Of a stretch of 64,000 nucleotides of DNA, positions 5,261 to 62,666 are shown in pieces. The notes below the pieces were generated by a model. The model did no database searches and had not been told where the DNA came from. It saw nothing but the letters and a program-made list of their open reading frames with translations. The translations under genes and the position numbers were made by a program. The stretch is from Natrinema sp. SYSU A 869 (GTDB taxonomy: Archaea > Halobacteriota > Halobacteria > Halobacteriales > Natrialbaceae), in NCBI RefSeq assembly GCF_019879105.1, contig NZ_CP082249.1, positions 2,108,001 to 2,172,000 of the forward strand, read 5' to 3'. The number at the start of each line of letters is the position of its first letter. Positions within the stretch are counted from its first letter, which is position 1.

Positions 5261-6951
5261 TGGAGCCGACGCTCCTACAGGCCGACACCGAGATGCTGAT
5301 CGAGTCGATCAACTATACGTGGATCCTGATCGCCACGTTCCTGATCTTCTTTATGCACGCCGGCTTCGCCATGCTCGAGGCGGGGCAGGTCCGCTCAAAG
5401 AACGTCGCGAACCAGCTGACGAAGAACTTGCTGACCTGGTCGGTCGGTGTGACGGTATTCTTCCTCATCGGGGCTGGCGTTGAAAGCGTCGTCGCCGGCA
5501 ACGGCTTCGCGCCCGGCTTCCAAGGTGACGCGACAGGCTGGATGGACTGGCTCTACGGTGCGGTCTTCGCCATGACTGCGGCGACCATCGTTTCCGGAGC
5601 CGTCGCCGGTCGGGCGAAGCTCCGTGCGTACGTCACCTACACGTTCCTGCTGGCCGCGGTCATCTACCCGGTCGTCACCGGGCTGACGTGGGCCGGCGAA
5701 CATATCGCATACAGTGACGTCCTGTTCCAGGACTTCGCGGGCGGGATGATCGTCCACGGAATGGGCGGCATCGCCGGCCTCACAGCAGCGTGGGTCCTCG
5801 GTCCGCGCATGGACCGGTACAACAGCGACGGGACCGCGAACGTTATCCCCGGTCACTCGCTGACCTTTGCCGTGCTCGGAACGCTGATCCTCGCCTTCGG
5901 CTGGTACGGCTTCAACGTCGGTACCTCGGCGATCATCGGCGAGGGCGCGTTCCTCGGCGACCAGCTCGGTCGCGTCGCCATGACCACGACGGTCTCGATG
6001 GCCTGCGGTGCGATGGGGGCCGGACTCATCGCGTGGCTCAAGACCGGCAAGGTTGACACGCTATACGTCGCGAACGGCCTGCTGGCCGGCCTGGTTGGCA
6101 TCACCGCGATTCCCGAAACGACCGCGTGGTGGGGAGCGTTCGTCGTCGGCGGCCTCGCCGGCGCACAGCTGCCAATCGTCTTCGAGTTCGTCGAGCAGTA
6201 CCTGAAGATCGACGACGTGTGTGCGGTGTTCCCCGTCCACGGCTCGGCCGGGGTCCTCGGAACGCTGTTGTTCCCCTTCGTGGCCGCGCCCGGCGTCGTC
6301 GATAACATCGCGAACGCCTTCATCACCCAGCTCATCGGCGTCGCCGTTATCACCGTCTGGACGGTCGTCGCGACCGCCGTCATCTGGTACGCGTTCAAAG
6401 CCGCCGGACAGGCCCGCGTCTCGCCGGAACACGAGCGCGACGGACTCGACGTCTCCGAACACGGCGTCGACACCTACCCCGAGTTCGGCCAGCCCGATGT
6501 CGCCACCGACGGGGGCGACGAGGTCATCCGCGCCGACGGCGGTGAGCGATTCGATGAATCGCGATCCTCGTCGGAACTCCGTTCCGACGGCGGCGAGCCG
6601 AACGACGGCCAGATCAAGATGGTCATGGCGATTGTCCGCCCCGACCGTCTCGGCGCGATCAAGCAGTCGCTCGCCGAAGCCGGCGCGCCATCGCTGACCG
6701 TCACCAACGTCTCCGGCCGCGGCTCCCAGCCCGCGAAGAAGGGGCAGTGGCGCGGCGAGGAGTACACGGTCGATCTCCACCAGAAGGTGAAGATCGAATG
6801 TGTCGTCGCGGACATCCCGGCCCAGGAGGTCGTCGATGCCATCCGCGAGGGCGCCGAAACCGGCGAGCCCGGCGACGGCAAGATCTTCGTCATGCCCGTC
6901 GAGGGCGCGACACAGATCCGGACCGGCAAGACCGGCCCTGACGCCGTCTAA
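5260..6951 (+). CDS. amt-glnK: ammonium transporter Amt fused to PII protein GlnK
   Basis: A 563-aa natural fusion. Residues 1 to about 395 form an Amt/Rh ammonium channel with about 11 membrane helices (for example [19 protein letters not shown] and [17 protein letters not shown]). Residues about 451-563 are a complete PII signalling domain ([13 protein letters not shown]-loop [15 protein letters not shown], Tyr in GEEYTVD, and the C-terminal [20 protein letters not shown]). PII normally binds Amt as a separate protein and plugs the channel according to 2-oxoglutarate and ATP/ADP. Here it is tethered by a ~55-residue acidic linker containing two DNA hairpins (6546-6562, 6570-6588). The start at 5260 was chosen for its coupling to the leader ORF; 5209 would add 17 residues. 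Confidence 0.93.
6546..6588 (+). repeat. two 3-nt-loop hairpins inside the Amt-GlnK linker
   Basis: Hairpin 1 is GCGATTC-GAT-GAATCGC (6546-6562). Hairpin 2 is GTCGGAAC-TCC-GTTCCGAC (6570-6588). Both stems are perfect, both loops are 3 nt, and the reading frame stays open, giving Ser/Glu/Arg-rich residues that end in LRSDGGEP. The RecJ-like gene has a matching PRSDGGEP after its own hairpin. Confidence 0.75.
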
Positions 6952-26703: not shown

Positions 26704-27615
26704 ATGAGCGGGACCGGTGTCGCTACCATCAGCGACTGTCGAATCGCCTACCGGCGTGCTGGAACGAGCGGGCCACCGATCGTCCTCTGTCACGGCGCGG
26801 GGCTCGACGACGCGACCGTCTCGTGGCGACACGCGATCAACGCCCTCGCGGACGACTATCGCGTCTACGCGCTCGACTGGCCCGGATACGGGAACAGTAC
26901 GGGCGATGTCGATCACACTATCGAGACCTACGTCGACGTCCTCGAAGGGTTCCTCGAGACGCTTCCCTTCGAGCGCGTCTCGCTGGCCGGCATCTCGATG
27001 GGCGGTGGCGTCGCGCTCGGCTACGCACTGGACAATCCCGACCGCGTCGAGCAACTGGCGCTCGTCGACAGTTACGGACTCGGCAATAAACTGCCGAATG
27101 CACTCCAGTGGAAGGTCCTGTCACAGGTTCCCGGCGCAACCGAGTTCGGAAAAATCGCGGCCAGTACCTCCACCCAGAGCGTCCGCATGGTCCTCGATGG
27201 TCTCGTCGCGGACGCCGGTGGGTTGCCCGATCGCTTCGTCGACGACATCAGACGGAAACTGATGGAACCCGGGTCGATACAGGCATTCGAGGAGTTCCAG
27301 AACAACGAACTCTCCTTCAACGGCCGCGTCGCGACGAACTTCGTCGACGATCTCGAGTCCCTGTCCGTACCGACGCTGCTGATCCACGGCCGGGAAGACC
27401 CCCTCGTCCCCGTCGAGTGGTCAAAGCGAGCGGCGGATCTGATTCCGGATGCCGAACTAGACCTCGTCGACGACTGCGGCCACTGGACGCCTCGAGAGCG
27501 CCCCGAGCGGTTCAACGAAAGCCTCCGAAACTGGCTCCCGGACCCCCGGTATTCACCGACACCGCAGTACACCAAGGAAGGAATGCCCGGCGTGACTCGC
27601 GTCAGCGGCGACTAG
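26704..27615 (+). CDS. alpha/beta-fold hydrolase
   Basis: A 303-aa serine hydrolase. The oxyanion segment is LCHGAGLDDATVSW. The nucleophile elbow is AGISMGGGVAL (G-x-S-x-G with Ser). The catalytic Asp is in LLIHGREDPLVP and the catalytic His in DDCGHWTPRERP. The overall plan fits the epoxide-hydrolase/haloperoxidase-like (MhpC-type) branch. No signal peptide. The substrate is unknown. It converges with polC across the seven-hairpin array. The N-terminus MSGTGVATISDCRIAYRRAG is standard for this group. Confidence 0.9.
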   Translation: MSGTGVATISDCRIAYRRAGTSGPPIVLCHGAGLDDATVSWRHAINALADDYRVYALDWPGYGNSTGDVDHTIETYVDVLEGFLETLPFERVSLAGISMGGGVALGYALDNPDRVEQLALVDSYGLGNKLPNALQWKVLSQVPGATEFGKIAASTSTQSVRMVLDGLVADAGGLPDRFVDDIRRKLMEPGSIQAFEEFQNNELSFNGRVATNFVDDLESLSVPTLLIHGREDPLVPVEWSKRAADLIPDAELDLVDDCGHWTPRERPERFNESLRNWLPDPRYSPTPQYTKEGMPGVTRVSGD

Positions 27616-28028
27616 TTCCGTTTCGTTCGTCTCATTCTGTATTCGGCCGGGAGCACGGCTCGAGCAACGCAAGAGCCGTGCGACCCGGGGGAGGGCAGGC
27701 CGCTACCCAATTCCGACCGCGAGCGGGCCGACGACTGACGTGGAGGGGGCGTTCTGCGTCCCGGAACGGAAGGAGGAGTGCTTTTGATCGTAACTGAGCG
27801 GAGCGAAGCTCCGCGAGGTCGTCGGGCGGCGCTGCCGCCCGACTGCAAGCGATTCCTCCGGAATCGCCCAGTCCAAAAGAGCGCTGCGCGCTCTTTTGAA
27901 GATTTTGCCGAGGGACATCGCGCTGGCGGCGATGCCGCCAGCGCGATAGACCGTGGTTCGAGACGCCTTCGGCGTCTCGTCATCACGAGAGAGCGAAGCT
28001 CTCTCGAACGACAGAGCAAAATTTCGGC
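27616..28028. other. 413-bp convergent intergenic region carrying the hairpin array
   Basis: No gene. The half beside polC is almost wholly made of the seven hairpins described separately (27798-28006). The other half (27616-27797) is GC-rich with no clear feature. Confidence 0.7.
27798..28006 (+). repeat. tandem array of seven perfect hairpins with 3-nt loops
   Basis: In order: 27798-27814 (GCGGAGC, loop GAA); 27821-27843 (10-bp stem, loop GCT); 27849-27867 (GCGATTCC, loop TCC); 27874-27898 (CAAAAGAGCGC, 11 bp, loop TGC); 27918-27946 (13-bp stem, loop GAT); 27959-27979 (CGAGACGCC, loop TTC); 27986-28006 (CGAGAGAGC, loop GAA). All stems are perfect, 7-13 bp long, and unrelated to one another in sequence. 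Spacers are 5-19 nt. Two carry the core GCGAAGC, known as an exceptionally stable DNA mini-hairpin. The array lies between convergent genes, so terminator use is possible, but seven in a row is far more than needed. Confidence 0.85.
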
Positions 28029-31000
28029 TTACATGAAGTCTTCAATCCCACTTTGCTTGTTCTTGTCATTTTCGAAAACGCTCTCGAGCGACCGCTCGAG
28101 TACTTCTAAGCGCTGTTTCGTGTAGTCTCGACAGTCGTACTCGTCGGCGACCTGGATCGCGGTCTGCATGTACTTGTTGACCGACCCCTTGTGGACGGTG
28201 AGGTTGACGCGGCCGCCGCATTCTCGGCAATCGCCGGTCAGGGGCATTCGTCGGAACTTCTCGCCGCAGTCGAGACAACGAGTCTCCTGCCGCGAAAACG
28301 CTCGGAGGTTCCCGATCAGGTCCGGCAGGAAGTGGTACTCGATGACCCGCTCGGCCACGTCCGTCTCGTCGACGGCCGCGAGTTTGCGCGAGAGCTCGAG
28401 TTGGGCGTCCATCTTGTCCATCATCGAGCCGAGCGTCTTGTAGGCGGAGAGATCGGGACCCATGGCGATGTCGGTGGTGTCGTGCGTGTGTTCGAAGCCG
28501 GTGTACTCCGTATCGGTACCCAGCGTGTCCTCGGCGATCTCGACGTCGACCTCACCGGGGTCGGCCTGCTCGCGGGTCGCGAGATAGAAGTCGCGGGGAT
28601 ACTGCGTGACGACGTCCATGTTGTGGGCCTCGTCGTCGATCTCGGAGGGATCGATGCGGGAGGACATGACGAGCGGGGCGTCCATCTTCCCGCCTCGTTG
28701 ATCCGGCAAGAACGATTTACTAAAGTTAAGCAATCCGTCAAGAAGGAGCATTACGCAGTCTTCGTCGCCATCGCAATTTCGGCGTTTCGCGGCGTGAAAG
28801 TACGGATGAGCGTATCCGACCGCCGCGCTCGTGAAACCAATCACTCTGCCGACAGTTGCTGCGGAGGTGTGGGGCGCCATCCCGAAGACGAGTTCGCCGA
28901 CAAGTTCCTGGCGGTCCTCGAACTCGTAGTAGGGCTCGAGGCCGTAGTACTGCTCCAAGAGGTCATCGATGAAGTCGGCGGTCTGGAGCATGTGCTCGGC
29001 CGCGCCGTTCGAGAGAACGATATCCTGGACGCGGAGCTCGACCAGTTGGTCCTCGTGGGTGAGCGGTTCGCCGTGAATGTCCTCCTCGTAGCCCAGCGCC
29101 TGGAGCTGACCGACGTCGATATCGAGTTCGGTCGCGCGGACGGACGTGACCGGCAGGTCGGTCATGTCGTAGCGGACGGTGCCGTCCTTGAACGAGGAGA
29201 CATCGTGTTTCGCGCGCAGGATTCCTTTCTCGATCGGTTCGGGGACCTTGTTCTGCGAGGAGAGTCCCTTGACGCCTTTCAGGATCTCGAAGGCGTTCTC
29301 GCGTTCGCCGACCGACTCGAGGGCGTTCCGAAACTCCTCGTTGACGTCGATTTCGCGGGGCTCGACGCAGGTGCCCTCGCGCTCGCAGTGATCGCACTCG
29401 ACGCGGCCGGCCTCGTCGGGCTCGAGACGCTCGTCACAGTCGGGACAGCGGTAGTCCGGTATCGTGCGGGTGTTACAGTCGGGGCAGCGGTTCTTGAACG
29501 TCTCCGTGCCACAGGACTCACAGCGCTGGCGACCGACCTGCAGTTCGACGACGCCGGGCGTGTCCGACATCGTCTCGGCGTGTTTGGCGGCGTCGGCGAC
29601 GTTGCGCTGTGCGCCGCCGGCTTCGCCGATCGGGAACAGCGTGTGAACGGACGGGCTCAGGTCGCGGCTCTCCGATTTTTCGGGACGGCCCATTCGGTTA
29701 CCGATCCGGGTCGGCGCTCGCTCGCGCACCTGAAACGGCGCGACCTCGTTGACCGCCTCGATGGCGTTGTCGCCATCGACCTCATGGCCCCATGTCCGGG
29801 CGCGTTCGGTGAGATCGTCGTCGGACCACGTGCGCTCGAGTTCGACGGTCGTCGCCTGCTCCCCGTCCCGTGCCTCGGGCTTGAGCGCGGCCCCGTCGGC
29901 GGCGGTTCGTCGGGGCTCACAGCCGAGCGTCCGGACGAGCGGTCGCCAGTCGTCAATCTCGATGTGGTCCTCGTCCGCGCGCTGGCGGTGCTCGAGGACG
30001 ATCGTCTCGAGGGCGTCACGGACCGGTTCGTCGTACTCGAGGACGAGCACGCTGTCGTCGCTCTCGACGTCGCCGTCGACGTGGCCGTCCGCGACTGCCG
30101 CGGCCAGCGTCCGGAACTGGTCGACGGCGATGTCGTGCCAGAGATAGGTGTACTCGGGATGGAGCGGCGCGTCGTACTCCATGGCCCACTCCAGGGCTTC
30201 CTCGGTGTCGGGAAACTCGAGATCGATACGGGGGTCGTCCTCGAGCGCCTGGACGTCTACGCCCGCAGCCTCGAGATCCTGGACCCACCACTCGTAGGTG
30301 TAGGAAGCTGGCGCGAGCGGGTGGTTGTTCTCGACGAACTCGCCGTAGTTGACCAGGTATTCACCGAGATCGAGGATGGCCTCGACGCCGTTTCTGATCT
30401 CGAGGGCGTCCTCGGGGTCGTCGATCCGGCGGACGTCGCCATTCGCGAGTTTGACCGTCGGCCCCTCGAGGGAGTCGACGGGGACGACGCCGGCGGCCTT
30501 TCCGGGGCGTTCGGTCTTGATCTGGGTACCCGTCGCGAGGAAGTCGTCGACGAGGTGCATCGCGGCGGGGTGGACGCCGGCGGTCGCGAAGCCGTGGTTG
30601 CGCGCGCGGCCGTAGCGCAGTCGGAAGCCCCCCTTCGAACAGGGGTGAGAGAAGACCGGCCGGCCGGCGATCAGGTCCCGGAGGTACTTCTCGGAGGTCT
30701 CGACGCGGGGCGGGCCGTCCGCTTCGTCGCCGTCGGGTTCGTCGTCTGCCGCCGTTTCGTCTGCATCGGCCTCGGCAGTCGCATCGTCGTCAGCCTCGCC
30801 GTCGGAATCGTCATCGCCGGCAGCGTCTCCGTCGTCATCGTAGTAGTTGCCGTCGATGAGGTCCTGCAGCCACGGCCAGTCGACCTCGTCCAAGTTGCGG
30901 GTGTACCGCTGGATCTTCGGGGCCTTCAGCGCGATTCCCTCGCCGAGGACGAGACACATCCCACCCCGGGCGCTGTTCGTGTCGACTCGCTCGAGATCCC

Positions 31001-31679
31001 GGAATCCGGAGACCTCCTCGTCACCGGTGGCCTCCCCGTCTAACATGATCGGGAGGTGTTTGGCGATGAATTTTGCCTCCTTTGCCTTCGGGGTATACTG
31101 CAGTCCGGTTTCCTTGTCGTAGAGGGCGATCTCCTCGGCGTAGCGTTCGACCTCCTCCTCGCGGGCAGTGAACTGTTCGATGCCCACGAGTGCGCGTGTG
31201 TAGTCGGCGACGAGCACCGAGAGCGCCTGTGCCGTCCCGCCCGCGGAGCGAATCGGGCCTGCGTAGTAGACGTTGACGAACTCCGTGCCGTCATCGTTCT
31301 CGAGGATTTCGACTTTGTCGATCCCCTCGATGGGGGCGGCGACGACGCCTTCGGTCAGTAGGGCGACCGCGGTACGGACTGCCCCCTCAACCTTGCCCGC
31401 TTTCGTCTCGTAGTCGCCGACGCGTCCCTCCGCGAAGTCTTCCGCGAGCTCGAGGGCCGCCTCCTCGCGGGACATCTGGCCCTCGAGTTCGCGGACCCGT
31501 TCGGCGACGCCGTCGATCCCGAGGATGTTCTCGACGCGGTCGGCCATGTCCTTGGCGACCGGAATCTCGACCTCGGGCTCGGGGTCACCGCCCCGTTGTT
31601 TGGCCCGCTCGGCGACCGCGAGGGCCTCGTCGAGCTGGTCCTCGAGCCCCTGAAAATATGCTTCGTCTTCCGTGCGCAT
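28029..31679 (-). CDS. polC: DNA polymerase II (family D) large subunit DP2
   Basis: A 1216-aa catalytic subunit of the archaeal replicative polymerase PolD. Landmarks: N-terminal YYAGPIRSAGGTAQALSVL; acidic linker at ~310-360; zinc-binding CESCGTETFKNRCPDCNTRT; the active-site region AAKRRNCDGDEDCVMLLLDG, which holds the catalytic acidic residues; C-terminal zinc motif CLDCGEKF...CRECGGRVN; and a PIP-like tail QSGIEDFM for PCNA. No intein is present, although this gene often carries one in haloarchaea. Codon use is abruptly unlike the rest around the active site (28690-28860). Start at 31679 (MRTEDEAYFQGL), one base after the PPC gene stop, so the two are coupled. Confidence 0.97.
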   Translation of the reverse strand: MRTEDEAYFQGLEDQLDEALAVAERAKQRGGDPEPEVEIPVAKDMADRVENILGIDGVAERVRELEGQMSREEAALELAEDFAEGRVGDYETKAGKVEGAVRTAVALLTEGVVAAPIEGIDKVEILENDDGTEFVNVYYAGPIRSAGGTAQALSVLVADYTRALVGIEQFTAREEEVERYAEEIALYDKETGLQYTPKAKEAKFIAKHLPIMLDGEATGDEEVSGFRDLERVDTNSARGGMCLVLGEGIALKAPKIQRYTRNLDEVDWPWLQDLIDGNYYDDDGDAAGDDDSDGEADDDATAEADADETAADDEPDGDEADGPPRVETSEKYLRDLIAGRPVFSHPCSKGGFRLRYGRARNHGFATAGVHPAAMHLVDDFLATGTQIKTERPGKAAGVVPVDSLEGPTVKLANGDVRRIDDPEDALEIRNGVEAILDLGEYLVNYGEFVENNHPLAPASYTYEWWVQDLEAAGVDVQALEDDPRIDLEFPDTEEALEWAMEYDAPLHPEYTYLWHDIAVDQFRTLAAAVADGHVDGDVESDDSVLVLEYDEPVRDALETIVLEHRQRADEDHIEIDDWRPLVRTLGCEPRRTAADGAALKPEARDGEQATTVELERTWSDDDLTERARTWGHEVDGDNAIEAVNEVAPFQVRERAPTRIGNRMGRPEKSESRDLSPSVHTLFPIGEAGGAQRNVADAAKHAETMSDTPGVVELQVGRQRCESCGTETFKNRCPDCNTRTIPDYRCPDCDERLEPDEAGRVECDHCEREGTCVEPREIDVNEEFRNALESVGERENAFEILKGVKGLSSQNKVPEPIEKGILRAKHDVSSFKDGTVRYDMTDLPVTSVRATELDIDVGQLQALGYEEDIHGEPLTHEDQLVELRVQDIVLSNGAAEHMLQTADFIDDLLEQYYGLEPYYEFEDRQELVGELVFGMAPHTSAATVGRVIGFTSAAVGYAHPYFHAAKRRNCDGDEDCVMLLLDGLLNFSKSFLPDQRGGKMDAPLVMSSRIDPSEIDDEAHNMDVVTQYPRDFYLATREQADPGEVDVEIAEDTLGTDTEYTGFEHTHDTTDIAMGPDLSAYKTLGSMMDKMDAQLELSRKLAAVDETDVAERVIEYHFLPDLIGNLRAFSRQETRCLDCGEKFRRMPLTGDCRECGGRVNLTVHKGSVNKYMQTAIQVADEYDCRDYTKQRLEVLERSLESVFENDKNKQSGIEDFM

Positions 31680-31680
31680 G

Positions 31681-32100
31681 TCAGAGCCAGAGGTCCAGCT
31701 CGGTGGTCTCGTCGTACTCGCGCTCGAGGGGCTCCTCGAAGACGCGCATATGGACCTCACCGGCCCAGACCGTCGCCTCGTTCAGGTGGCCGGCGTAGGT
31801 GGTTCCCTCGTCGTCCGAGAGGACCGCGTGCGTGTGGGCGAACCGTTCGTCGTCTAGCCAGGAGACATTCCCGGTACAGCCGGCGACCTCGAGCGGTTCA
31901 TCGAACTCGATTGGGTAGTATTCACACTCATCCTGATCGTAGAACCACAGTTCGGCGTCCTGGACCGCGCCGAGCGCGGTGAACCAAGCGGCGTCGGCCT
32001 CGACGTCGTCCGCGAGCGACTCGATCTCGGCCCGCCAGTCGGCACCGGTCTCGAGGCGGGCGACGTACTCACCCGTGGTTTCGACGGCTCGATAGTTCAT
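31681..32100 (-). CDS. PPC (DUF296) domain DNA-binding-type protein
   Basis: A 139-aa protein that is essentially one PPC/DUF296 domain: YVARLETGADWRAEIESLADD, AAWFTALGAVQDAELWFYD, and GHLNEATVWAGEVHMRVFE near the end. In plants this domain trimerises in AT-hook proteins; prokaryotic stand-alone copies are mostly uncharacterised, with some metal-binding examples. It lies directly upstream of polC with a 1-bp gap. That arrangement puts it in the replication operon and may hint at a nucleic-acid role. Confidence 0.85.
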   Translation of the reverse strand: MNYRAVETTGEYVARLETGADWRAEIESLADDVEADAAWFTALGAVQDAELWFYDQDECEYYPIEFDEPLEVAGCTGNVSWLDDERFAHTHAVLSDDEGTTYAGHLNEATVWAGEVHMRVFEEPLEREYDETTELDLWL

Positions 32101-59423: not shown

Positions 59424-60371
59424 ATGGGACGAACCCGTTCTGAGCCGCCACAGTCGCGAACGGCGGCGGACCCGCTGGGACGAGCGATGCTCGCTCACTA
59501 CCGCGACGGCCCGGGTCAGTTGGCCTATCGCGACGGCGCGGACGTGCAAGACGGTAACGTCGCCGAATTCTATTTCTCGAGTCCCGAGTCATGGGAGTCG
59601 GAAACGATCGAGGTACTCGAGCGAGTGGCCGACCACGAACCAATCCTCGACGTGGGGTGTGGCGCGGGGAAACACCTCCTGTGGTGGGCCGAGCGCGGGG
59701 TCGAAGCCGTCGGCGTCGACGTAAGTCCGAACGCCGTCTTAACGGCCCGCGAGCGGTGCGAGGTCCGCAGGACCTCAAGGCGGAGTTGCGTGGAGCAATG
59801 CTCCACGTACCCTTCGAGCGGGCTGCGAGGCGGCGAAGCCGCCTCGAACGGGACGGCAAAGCCGTCCCCCAGCCCGCGAGAAGACGGCAAAGCCGCGGAG
59901 CGCGGCCTCGAGGACGTCCTCGTCGGCGACATGTTCGACCTACCGATCGAAACGGGGTCGGTCGGTGCTGTCCACGCCGTCGGGACGCAGATAGGGCTCG
60001 GCCGCTCGCTCGCTGGGATTCGCGAACTGCTCGTCGAATTCGCTCGCGTCACCGCCGACGGGGGCGTCGCCGTCGTCGACAACAACGACCCGGCGCGACT
60101 GGACGACGAGTTCTTCGGCTACCGACCCGATCCGCGCGAGGGAGTCGCCCACCGGTGTTTCCACCTCGAGTTCGAACACGAGACAGAGAAGGGTGAGCGA
60201 TACCGCGAGGTCGGTCGAACGCTACAGTTCCTGCTGTGCTCCCCCGCACGGCTCCGCGAGGCGACGAGTGCGACGCCGTGGTTCGTCTGCGACGTCCGCC
60301 GAACCGACGGGACGGCCCATTACAGAGCAATTCTGGAAAAGCAGGGCATATCGGGCGCTGAACCCGGATAG
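59424..60371 (+). CDS. SAM-dependent methyltransferase with hairpin-array insert
   Basis: A 315-aa class I methyltransferase. Motif I is ILDVGCGAGKHLLWWAERG, followed by EAVGVDVSPNAVLTARERC. Here the sequence is interrupted by about 45 residues (~113-160) of Arg/Ser/Gly-rich, haloarchaea-atypical protein (VRRTSRRSCVEQCSTYPSSG...). The fold then resumes at LEDVLVGDMFDLPIETGSVGAV. The insert matches a cluster of DNA hairpins (59760-59906) and keeps the frame. Post-insert motifs are intact, so the protein may still work. Start at MGRTRSEPPQ (59424). Substrate unknown. Confidence 0.85.
   Translation: MGRTRSEPPQSRTAADPLGRAMLAHYRDGPGQLAYRDGADVQDGNVAEFYFSSPESWESETIEVLERVADHEPILDVGCGAGKHLLWWAERGVEAVGVDVSPNAVLTARERCEVRRTSRRSCVEQCSTYPSSGLRGGEAASNGTAKPSPSPREDGKAAERGLEDVLVGDMFDLPIETGSVGAVHAVGTQIGLGRSLAGIRELLVEFARVTADGGVAVVDNNDPARLDDEFFGYRPDPREGVAHRCFHLEFEHETEKGERYREVGRTLQFLLCSPARLREATSATPWFVCDVRRTDGTAHYRAILEKQGISGAEPG
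59760..59906 (+). repeat. in-frame hairpin array inside the methyltransferase gene
   Basis: Hairpins: GAGGTCC-GCA-GGACCTC (59760-59776); CGTGGAGC-AAT-GCTCCACG (59789-59807); CGAGGCGGC-GAA-GCCGCCTCG (59826-59846); GGGACGGC-AAA-GCCGTCCC (59850-59868); GCCGCG-GAG-CGCGGC (59892-59906). The third and fourth are enclosed by a further perfect stem GCGGGCTG/CAGCCCGC (59818-59825 with 59870-59877), so a three-way junction can form. All terminal loops are 3 nt. Confidence 0.85.
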
Positions 60372-62131: not shown

Positions 62132-62666
62132 ACAGTGTTGTTCGGGAGCCGGTCCCATCGGTCTATCGCCGTCGGCCAATTACTCTCTCCGTTCTGTGAG
62201 TAGAGCCGTTGATTCCCTCGAGTAGAAGCAAATCAAAGCGTCCTGCTATCGTGGCAACGAGGGATCGCCACGCCCTCCCCAACCGATTTCTGCTCACGGG
62301 CGCGTAGCGCCCGTTCGCATGGGTCTCGGAACCTTTGGTTCCGCGCTAACACTCACTCACGCCGTTCGTTCGCTTATCCACTGTCAGAGCAAGCTCTGAC
62401 AAGCCTTTGCTCGCAGGCTCGCAAAGACCTCGCACGGCTTTGGGCCGCAGCTCACTGGCGTTCACCGCGTTCCAGCGCGCGCCACCGCATGCCAGTTCAT
62501 CAATACCGGGAGATGTGTAGTCCACCTGTATCGAACGCTCGAGCGCGCGCAGACCCTGACAGATCGCCACTGATCGAGCGGCGGGCGAGCGCAGCGTCGC
62601 TCGAGGAGGAGATCCCAGGGCTCGCGAGACGATACTTTAAACCGCGGGACGCGCCAAGGGTGGATA
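62132..62666. other. 535-bp divergent intergenic region, mostly repeat copy B
   Basis: Apart from the structured repeat (62223-62530), it holds the promoter side of the stress-protein gene (62132-62222) and of the helicase, where TACTTTAAACC (62634-62644) is a TATA-like element about 25 nt before the ATG at 62667. ORFs of 60-90 codons here run through the repeat and are not credible genes. Confidence 0.6.
62223..62530 (-). repeat. structured repeat element, copy B
   Basis: The reverse strand is homologous to 18878-19230. On that strand it starts with GCATGCGGTGGCGCGCGCTG (from 62492 down) and ends near TCGTTGCC (62252). Hairpins, forward coordinates: 62405-62426 (CTTTGC/GCAAAG); 62382-62401 (TGTCAGAGC/GCTCTGACA); 62327-62343 (CGGAACC-TTT-GGTTCCG); 62296-62314 (ACGGGCGC-GTA-GCGCCCGT). 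Compared with copy A, stems keep pairing while bases change (for example ACGGGTGC/GCACCCGT against ACGGGCGC/GCGCCCGT). Copy B lacks one ~50-bp segment of copy A. Confidence 0.8.

Follow-up and report, generated by a model that had tools for sequence, protein, structure and literature searches.

Seven perfect hairpins, each with a loop of three nucleotides, follow one another behind the stop codon of polC in Natrinema sp. SYSU A 869, and the locus raises the question of what these hairpins are and how they came to stand together. We analyzed a window of 64,000 nt (assembly GCF_019879105.1, contig NZ_CP082249.1, positions 2,108,001-2,172,000 of the forward strand), in which all coordinates below are counted. 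The array separates polC, which we take to encode the large subunit of DNA polymerase D, from a convergent neighbor gene. Genes were called with our own heuristic, which labelled part of the hairpin array itself as a gene.

Hairpins of the array and their recurrence

A hairpin scan of the window recovered all seven perfect 3-nt-loop hairpins that had been predicted at 27798-28006, at positions 27798-27814, 27821-27843, 27849-27867, 27874-27898, 27917-27947, 27959-27979 and 27986-28006. In this order their loops on the plus strand are GAA, GCT, TCC, TGC, GAT, TTC and GAA and their stems 7, 10, 8, 11, 14, 9 and 9 bp; the predicted stem range of 7-13 bp was right except for its upper bound, as one stem has 14. 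A chance origin had been judged very unlikely, and 5000 dinucleotide shuffles of 27779-28031 agree, giving two hairpins at most (none in 4812 shuffles, one in 182, two in 6). The proposed count against shuffled sequence, performed on the window and on 400 kb of the genome, showed loop-3 hairpins in excess. The whole window contains 26 with a stem of at least 7 bp, compared with 5.7 after shuffling, while other loop lengths occur at ∼0.6 to 1.7 times expectation. Intergenic, non-coding DNA of the 400-kb sample holds 13 loop-3 hairpins with stems of at least 8 bp where 0.4 are expected; loops of 0, 1 and 5 nt were found 5 times each against 1.6-1.8 expected, so that the excess there lies mainly at loop 3. 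At 80 named haloarchaeal loci the count is 127 loop-3 hairpins versus 56 expected. The hairpin excess is therefore largely specific to a loop length of three. The window has additional perfect 3-nt-loop hairpins, grouped in twos or threes, at 6546-6589, 17780-17852, 59760-59868 and 62296-62343, some of them apparently within reading frames.

A repeat search of 27600-28100 returned no direct repeats and one inverted pair, and we rejected a tandem repeat. When the genome was searched with 27610-28030, BLAST gave 44 matches, the locus itself counted. These paralogues have linkers and their order in common; their stems differ with compensation and their loops vary. Two statements made from the window alone, that the stem sequences are unrelated and that only the architecture repeats, did not survive this comparison, as stems and linkers alike are found again elsewhere in the genome and among relatives. 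The array is a dispersed element and not a local oddity.

Comparison with relatives indicates that the seven hairpins are one old gene-end hairpin, which lies in what we call the core, plus three two-hairpin elements, pairs A, B and C. Read in polC sense, the layout starts with the stop codon, CCGAAATTTTGCTCTG, TCGTT-HP1-TGATGA-HP4-AACCAC, HP5 and CTCGGCAAAAT and continues with CTT-HP6-GACTGG-HP7-TTGCA-HP8-GACCTC-HP9-TCAGT, ATCAAAAGCACTCCTCC and the tail. The features are as follows.

28029..31760, minus strand: polC, an ORF of 1243 aa, with its stop codon at 28029-28031 and the element directly after it.
26704..27615, plus strand: convergent neighbor gene, an ORF, putatively alpha/beta-hydrolase-like.
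28016..28027, minus strand: 5' arm of the outer stem P1 (CCGAAATTTTGC), 1 nt past the polC stop; P1 covaries.
27954..28011, minus strand: pair A, 58 bp, TCGTT-HP1-TGATGA-HP4-AACCA, from a pattern match and from empty and filled orthologues.
27986..28006, minus strand: HP1 of pair A, stem 9, CGAGAGAGC (hairpin scan).
27959..27979, minus strand: HP4 of pair A, stem 9, CGAGACGCC (hairpin scan).
27917..27947, minus strand: P2 (HP5), the core tip hairpin, stem 14 (hairpin scan and relatives).
27901..27909, minus strand: 3' arm of P1 (GGCAAAATC), with modules B and C lying between it and the distal part of the arm.
27793..27901, minus strand: module B, consisting of pair B (HP6 and HP9) with pair C in its linker (comparison with relatives).
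27874..27898, minus strand: HP6 of pair B, stem 11, CAAAAGAGCGC (hairpin scan; in the same place in L007, L052 and L278).
27849..27867, minus strand: HP7 of pair C, stem 8, GCGATTCC (hairpin scan).
27821..27843, minus strand: HP8 of pair C, stem 10, GTCGGGCGGC (hairpin scan).
27818..27870, minus strand: pair C, 53 bp, TGG-HP7-TTGCA-HP8-GAC (comparison of filled and uninterrupted copies).
27798..27814, minus strand: HP9 of pair B, stem 7, GCGGAGC (hairpin scan).
27616..27792, minus strand: core tail (..ATCAAAAGCACTCCTCC..CAGTCGTCGGCCCGCTCGC..CCTGCCCTCCCCCGGGTC..CTCCCGGCC), conserved in relatives.

The core element at gene ends

The proposed comparison of the orthologous region was carried out among relatives, and six of the seven hairpins are missing at most orthologous polC sites. 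At this site the relatives within Natrinema mostly show a single hairpin or no hairpin at all, the usual content being only TTTTGCTCTGC, one hairpin and TCGGCAAAA, or a decayed form of it. HP5 is the sole hairpin of the seven that matches the hairpin of most relatives. The neighbor gene, identified by ORF length and strand, recurs at most polC sites of the genus. Intermediate arrangements also occur, with the polC site of G002 holding the core and module B without pair A and those of L007 and L052 holding the core and pair B without pair C. A tblastn search gave 80 named haloarchaeal relatives, and among 20 distant loci the core layout is the same in most. In L061 and L073 (Halarchaeum), the outer stem and tip 3' of polC form a single perfect hairpin whose stem has 22-23 bp and whose loop has 3 nt. 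The polC frame itself measures 1429-1754 codons in L098-L100, L108 and L115 as opposed to the usual ∼1245, perhaps owing to an intein.

The core layout, a stop codon followed after 2-10 nt by TTTTGC, a hairpin and GCAAAA, is haloarchaeal and conserved. An exact core pattern that fixes the flanks and the gap length, and requires neither a hairpin nor a gene, matched 24 of the 29 genus genomes (reversed control, 1/29) and 81 of 391 genomes of the class, from four labelled families (reversed control, 2/391). Conservation of the core flanks is built into these copies because they were found by patterns that fix those flanks. The gap holds a hairpin that is perfect in 88 of 116 cases, and of the 106 hairpins that have no more than one mismatch, 98 have a 3-nt loop; these mismatch and hairpin counts exclude two CTCCC copies. 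A looser search for TTTTGC..GCAAAA in 101 stretches found 38 matches versus 8, 2 and 4 for controls, and all 17 loose copies that lie less than 40 nt from a stop lie within 12 nt of it.

The original prediction had noted the position just past the polC stop, and this position proved meaningful. The genus searches summed to 132 core matches, 98 of which were read for stop codons, the 34 omitted including most of the imperfect CTCCC class; in 85 of these 98 the stop codon of a long frame on the same strand lies 2-10 nt upstream. In the DNA fold the 3' arm of P1 (27901..27909) pairs with the 5' arm, and both the outer and the inner core stem covary. For P1, covariation within the genus reaches 0.88 at position 5 versus 0.44 after shuffling, and in other families it is 0.85, 0.70 and 0.90 at positions 2, 5 and 6 versus 0.33, 0.31 and 0.49.

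Grouped by upstream gene, the 98 copies fall into 26 groups, 18 of them with at least two copies; their stems are perfect in 74 and have one mismatch in 14. At a single core site the stem switches between species among ∼10 recurring sequences. Among 55 pairs of orthologous copies with identical perfect stems at the same site, which are not independent of one another, the loop is the same in 25, the reverse complement in 16 and different in 14. An imperfect hairpin class (GCTCCCTCGCT..CTCGGTCGC) occupies the core slot in G009 (C28, C50) and G023, with near-identical loops within each genome and tandem copies ∼90 bp apart, which suggests homogenisation within genomes.

An Rfam 15 search gave four matches up to E 5 and none at the gathering score, and the core tail (27616-27792) has no counterpart among Rfam families. 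A K-turn or box C/D was considered as a candidate interpretation of TGATGA and the internal loop. The hairpin-then-T-run order of bacterial-type terminators is absent, as the T4 of the core precedes the hairpin; an archaeal U-tract is represented by TTTGC at 2-10 nt past the stop in 85 of 98 copies. We think that the core is a putative transcription 3'-end (terminator) element. A multi-step terminator had been among the roles proposed for the array, and a terminator is plausible for the core element alone.

The two-hairpin elements

Pair A occupies a G^C step (^ marks the junction) of the internal loop that separates P1 from P2, and core elements in the window and at several other loci carry it at CTCTG^C. 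The stem of HP1 recurs elsewhere in the genome with varying loops. The general pattern GTT-hp-T(G/C)AT(G/C)A-hp-AAC was found in 27 of the 29 genus genomes, with up to 8 matches each, and the family in 200 of 292 class genomes from 10 of 11 labelled families, these genome counts including a few chance matches within coding DNA; the reversed-pattern control gave 0. Among the matches listed we typed 65 pairs, one strand each and with overlapping, evidently chance and some imperfect matches omitted, and 124 of their 130 hairpins have a 3-nt loop with at most one mismatch, 113 being perfect. The commonest pair stem, CGAGAGAGC, has loops of both orientations (AAA 4 and TTT 5, GGA 3 and TCC 3, GAA 6 and TTC 4). 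In L139 and L144 two extra hairpins (HP2 and HP3) lie between TGA and TGA of pair A, and the nested four-hairpin form in L139 extends to 109 bp.

Filled and empty sites show how these pairs are placed. A 54-bp pair interrupts a Y1 transposase gene in L290, and the paralogue of this gene in L288 aligns straight through with exactly these 54 bp absent; in L284 a pair splits a second transposase gene. An end that we take, from its neighborhood in L290, to be of IS605 type is filled by a pair at one step, GCCTCGGGG^CTTGACCCC, in 6 copies in 6 of 29 genomes, while empty copies (GCCTCGGGGCTTGACCCC) occur in 23 of 29. The filled ends have three types of flank, judged by eye, that also occur empty. 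The IS605-type end hairpin GCCTCGGGGCTTGACCCC has 63 copies with at most one mismatch in G005, far above other genomes of the genus. All 27 distinct pair copies have TCGTT at the 5' end, and 23 have AACCA at the 3' end; the base to the left is G in 26 and the base to the right C in 24, with G^C in 24. No target duplication is visible at the two split transposase genes or at the IS605-end sites. Empty and filled sites together show that the pair A family is mobile and that it inserts cleanly between G and C.

Flank pairing around the pair exceeds the 95% control in 6 of the 27 copies, and hairpin-loop targeting was for this reason rejected as a general rule. The Natrinema genome has 7 Y1_Tnp matches; at the 6 loci read none is flanked by a pair, the sole association being the split gene, and hairpins occur near six of the seven.

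Module B is inserted with GGCAAAAT on one side and the distal P1 arm on the other. In pair B the linker, GAC^CTC, is interrupted by pair C in the window and in L139-L141 and is intact, as GACCTC, in L007, L052 and L278, which indicates that pair C is nested in pair B. HP8 has the loop AGC in the window, and three further copies that share its stem have GCT. For pairs B and C the evidence is comparison inside this element family, and as no empty site was found outside the family, they may have been inherited together with the element and not inserted independently.

Folding, alternative explanations and related systems

The loop sequences bear on whether DNA or RNA folding is the constraint. 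Three-nucleotide loops of the type d(C-GNA-G) are among the most stable DNA mini-hairpins, and a literature search confirmed that GCGAAGC mini-hairpins are widely used. The original prediction had singled out this ultra-stable motif, and with good reason: among 100 core hairpins, counted at up to one mismatch, C-G closes the loop in 98 and 77 loops are GNA (38) or TNC (39), the other 23 being different, against a GNA plus TNC background of 0.16. Among 124 pair hairpins the closing pair is C-G in all 124, with GNA in 36 and TNC in 48. Single mismatches are G.T in 6 and A.C in 6 core hairpins and G.T in 5 and A.C in 6 pair hairpins. As the two kinds are about equally common, there is no RNA wobble bias, and this test for selection on a sense-strand RNA was negative. 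GNA and TNC are also evenly represented by direction, with 17 and 16 at convergent and 16 and 12 at co-directional sites; convergent transcription as the cause of loop symmetry was rejected because co-directional sites are symmetric too. The folding energies do not discriminate, since the region is as unusual in RNA as in DNA folding (z -8.9 and -9.2), so that a function as RNA is conceivable. Given the strand symmetry of the loops, we favor DNA folding rather than RNA folding as the likely constraint. Arms that stay perfect as their sequence changes, together with reverse-complemented loops, suggest either that template switching rewrites one arm from its partner or that copies exchange whole hairpins. 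As a hypothesis, arm-to-arm copying would be consistent with the loop flips; selection alone, balancing GNA-type loops, could mimic them.

We consider it quite probable that the array is a composite of an old gene-end core, mobile pair A and pairs B and C, and that at least elements of the pair A type are mobile and present in most haloarchaeal genomes sampled. The core is an old haloarchaeal gene-end element (TTTTGC, tip hairpin, GCAAAA, 2-10 nt past the stop), into whose internal loop pair A, a mobile two-hairpin element of 50-60 bp, was inserted at G^C. The pairs would probably move as single-stranded or snap-back DNA, with the enzyme supplied elsewhere. That the whole array instead functions as a single multi-hairpin terminator or as a structured RNA of the 3' UTR, selected for its RNA structure, seems unlikely to us. 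The position directly behind stop codons, the covarying stems and the strong RNA fold would all be expected of it, and in a Haloferax reporter a hairpin terminated 59% of transcripts (PMC7237163, in the text available); yet most orthologous sites lack six of the seven hairpins, pairs lie within transposase genes and IS ends, mismatches have no G.U preference and loops no strand preference, the loops are of 3 and not 4 nt, and T4 stands before the hairpin and not after it.

Replication template switching is reported, in the accessible parts of two papers, to make perfect stems and invert loops (PMC8794818; PMC8604942), and the array and pairs have just such perfect arms and loop reversals. We nevertheless regard a local origin of the hairpins as short inverted copies, with no mobile unit, as very improbable: local copying would yield unrelated linkers, whereas the linkers and ends of pair A are common to unrelated sites and genera, and the clean 54-bp insertions match a shared family. 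The pairs could also be REPINs or BIMEs proper moved by a RAYT transposase, with which they share the form of a gene-less, dispersed, mosaic doublet of inverted palindromes with compensated stems and mutual insertion (PMC3116915, in part). This too we find doubtful, as the pair ends are TCGTT..AACCA without a GTAG or CGTC tag and none of the 6 Y1 loci examined in the Natrinema genome adjoins a pair, save the split one. For chance or an assembly artefact we found nothing in favor; the shuffles, the class-wide recurrence with zero controls and the many independent assemblies refute it. The composite reading is only partly anticipated by the four roles first offered (terminator, structured RNA, protein-binding cruciforms, repeated inverted copying), which did not include two-hairpin elements with clean empty sites for the pair A family.

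More tentatively, and with rather more doubt than confidence, we propose that most haloarchaea harbor a gene-less mobile DNA consisting solely of two perfect C-GNA-G mini-hairpins, ∼55 bp long, that enters single-stranded DNA at G^C, often beside or inside hairpins including its own relatives; nesting would then build branching hairpin trees, whose arms would be rewritten and loops flipped at the DNA level. If this is true, the pair-type element would be among the smallest mobile elements known, its cargo being DNA shape alone. The anatomy of the array is explained under the composite reading, which resolves the odd array into layers whose order in time can be worked out, and the pairs account for part of the strong haloarchaeal excess of 3-nt-loop hairpins. 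The 200 of 292 genomes offer natural replicates on how transposase-free hairpin DNA moves, and the loop reversals and compensated stems form a large natural data set on the upkeep of perfect hairpins. In the core we have a candidate, open to testing, for a gene-end signal conserved among haloarchaea.

In our search of open-licence papers we found neither the core element of haloarchaea described nor pair A recognized as a unit of two hairpins. A Natrialba magadii paper does not mention hairpins, palindromes or MITEs, and the available portions of PMC5217627 and of the RepRanger and inverted-repeat survey papers contain no haloarchaeal words. Archaeal U-tract terminators of Haloferax resemble the core in having a T-run soon past the stop codon, whereas T4 in the core is followed by a stem of two parts that covaries and encloses a fixed internal loop (PMC7237163, available text). 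The pairs, as 65 doublets of 130 hairpins, are like REP, BIME and REPIN sequences in being extragenic, dispersed, mosaic, non-autonomous doublets of inverted palindromes with compensated stems (PMC2817692, PMC3733652, PMC3116915, each in part), and differ from REP in being archaeal and in having a loop that is nearly always 3 nt. The small mobile repeats (SMR, types A and B) of Haloquadratum walsbyi are described in the text available of PMC3119063 as transposase-free, with inverted repeats and without target duplication, as preferring near-terminal palindromes of IS605-type elements for insertion, and as ∼110 bp (SMR-A) or, for one SMR-B, 80 bp long, their mobilisation being termed enigmatic. 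Compared by description, pair A is likewise haloarchaeal, gene-less and without target duplication, and at 54-58 bp at the sites read it is also too short for a transposase gene. Its terminal repeats (TCGTT on the left in 27/27, AACCA, AACGA or AACTA on the right) are imperfect and only 5 bp long. It occupies IS605-type ends in 6 copies in 6/29 genomes, with many copies elsewhere, and it has about half the length of SMR-A, only the nested form reaching 109 bp; the same portion of PMC3119063 describes no two 3-nt-loop hairpins. The closest known kinds are thus the small mobile repeats of Haloquadratum and the bacterial REP, BIME and REPIN sequences.
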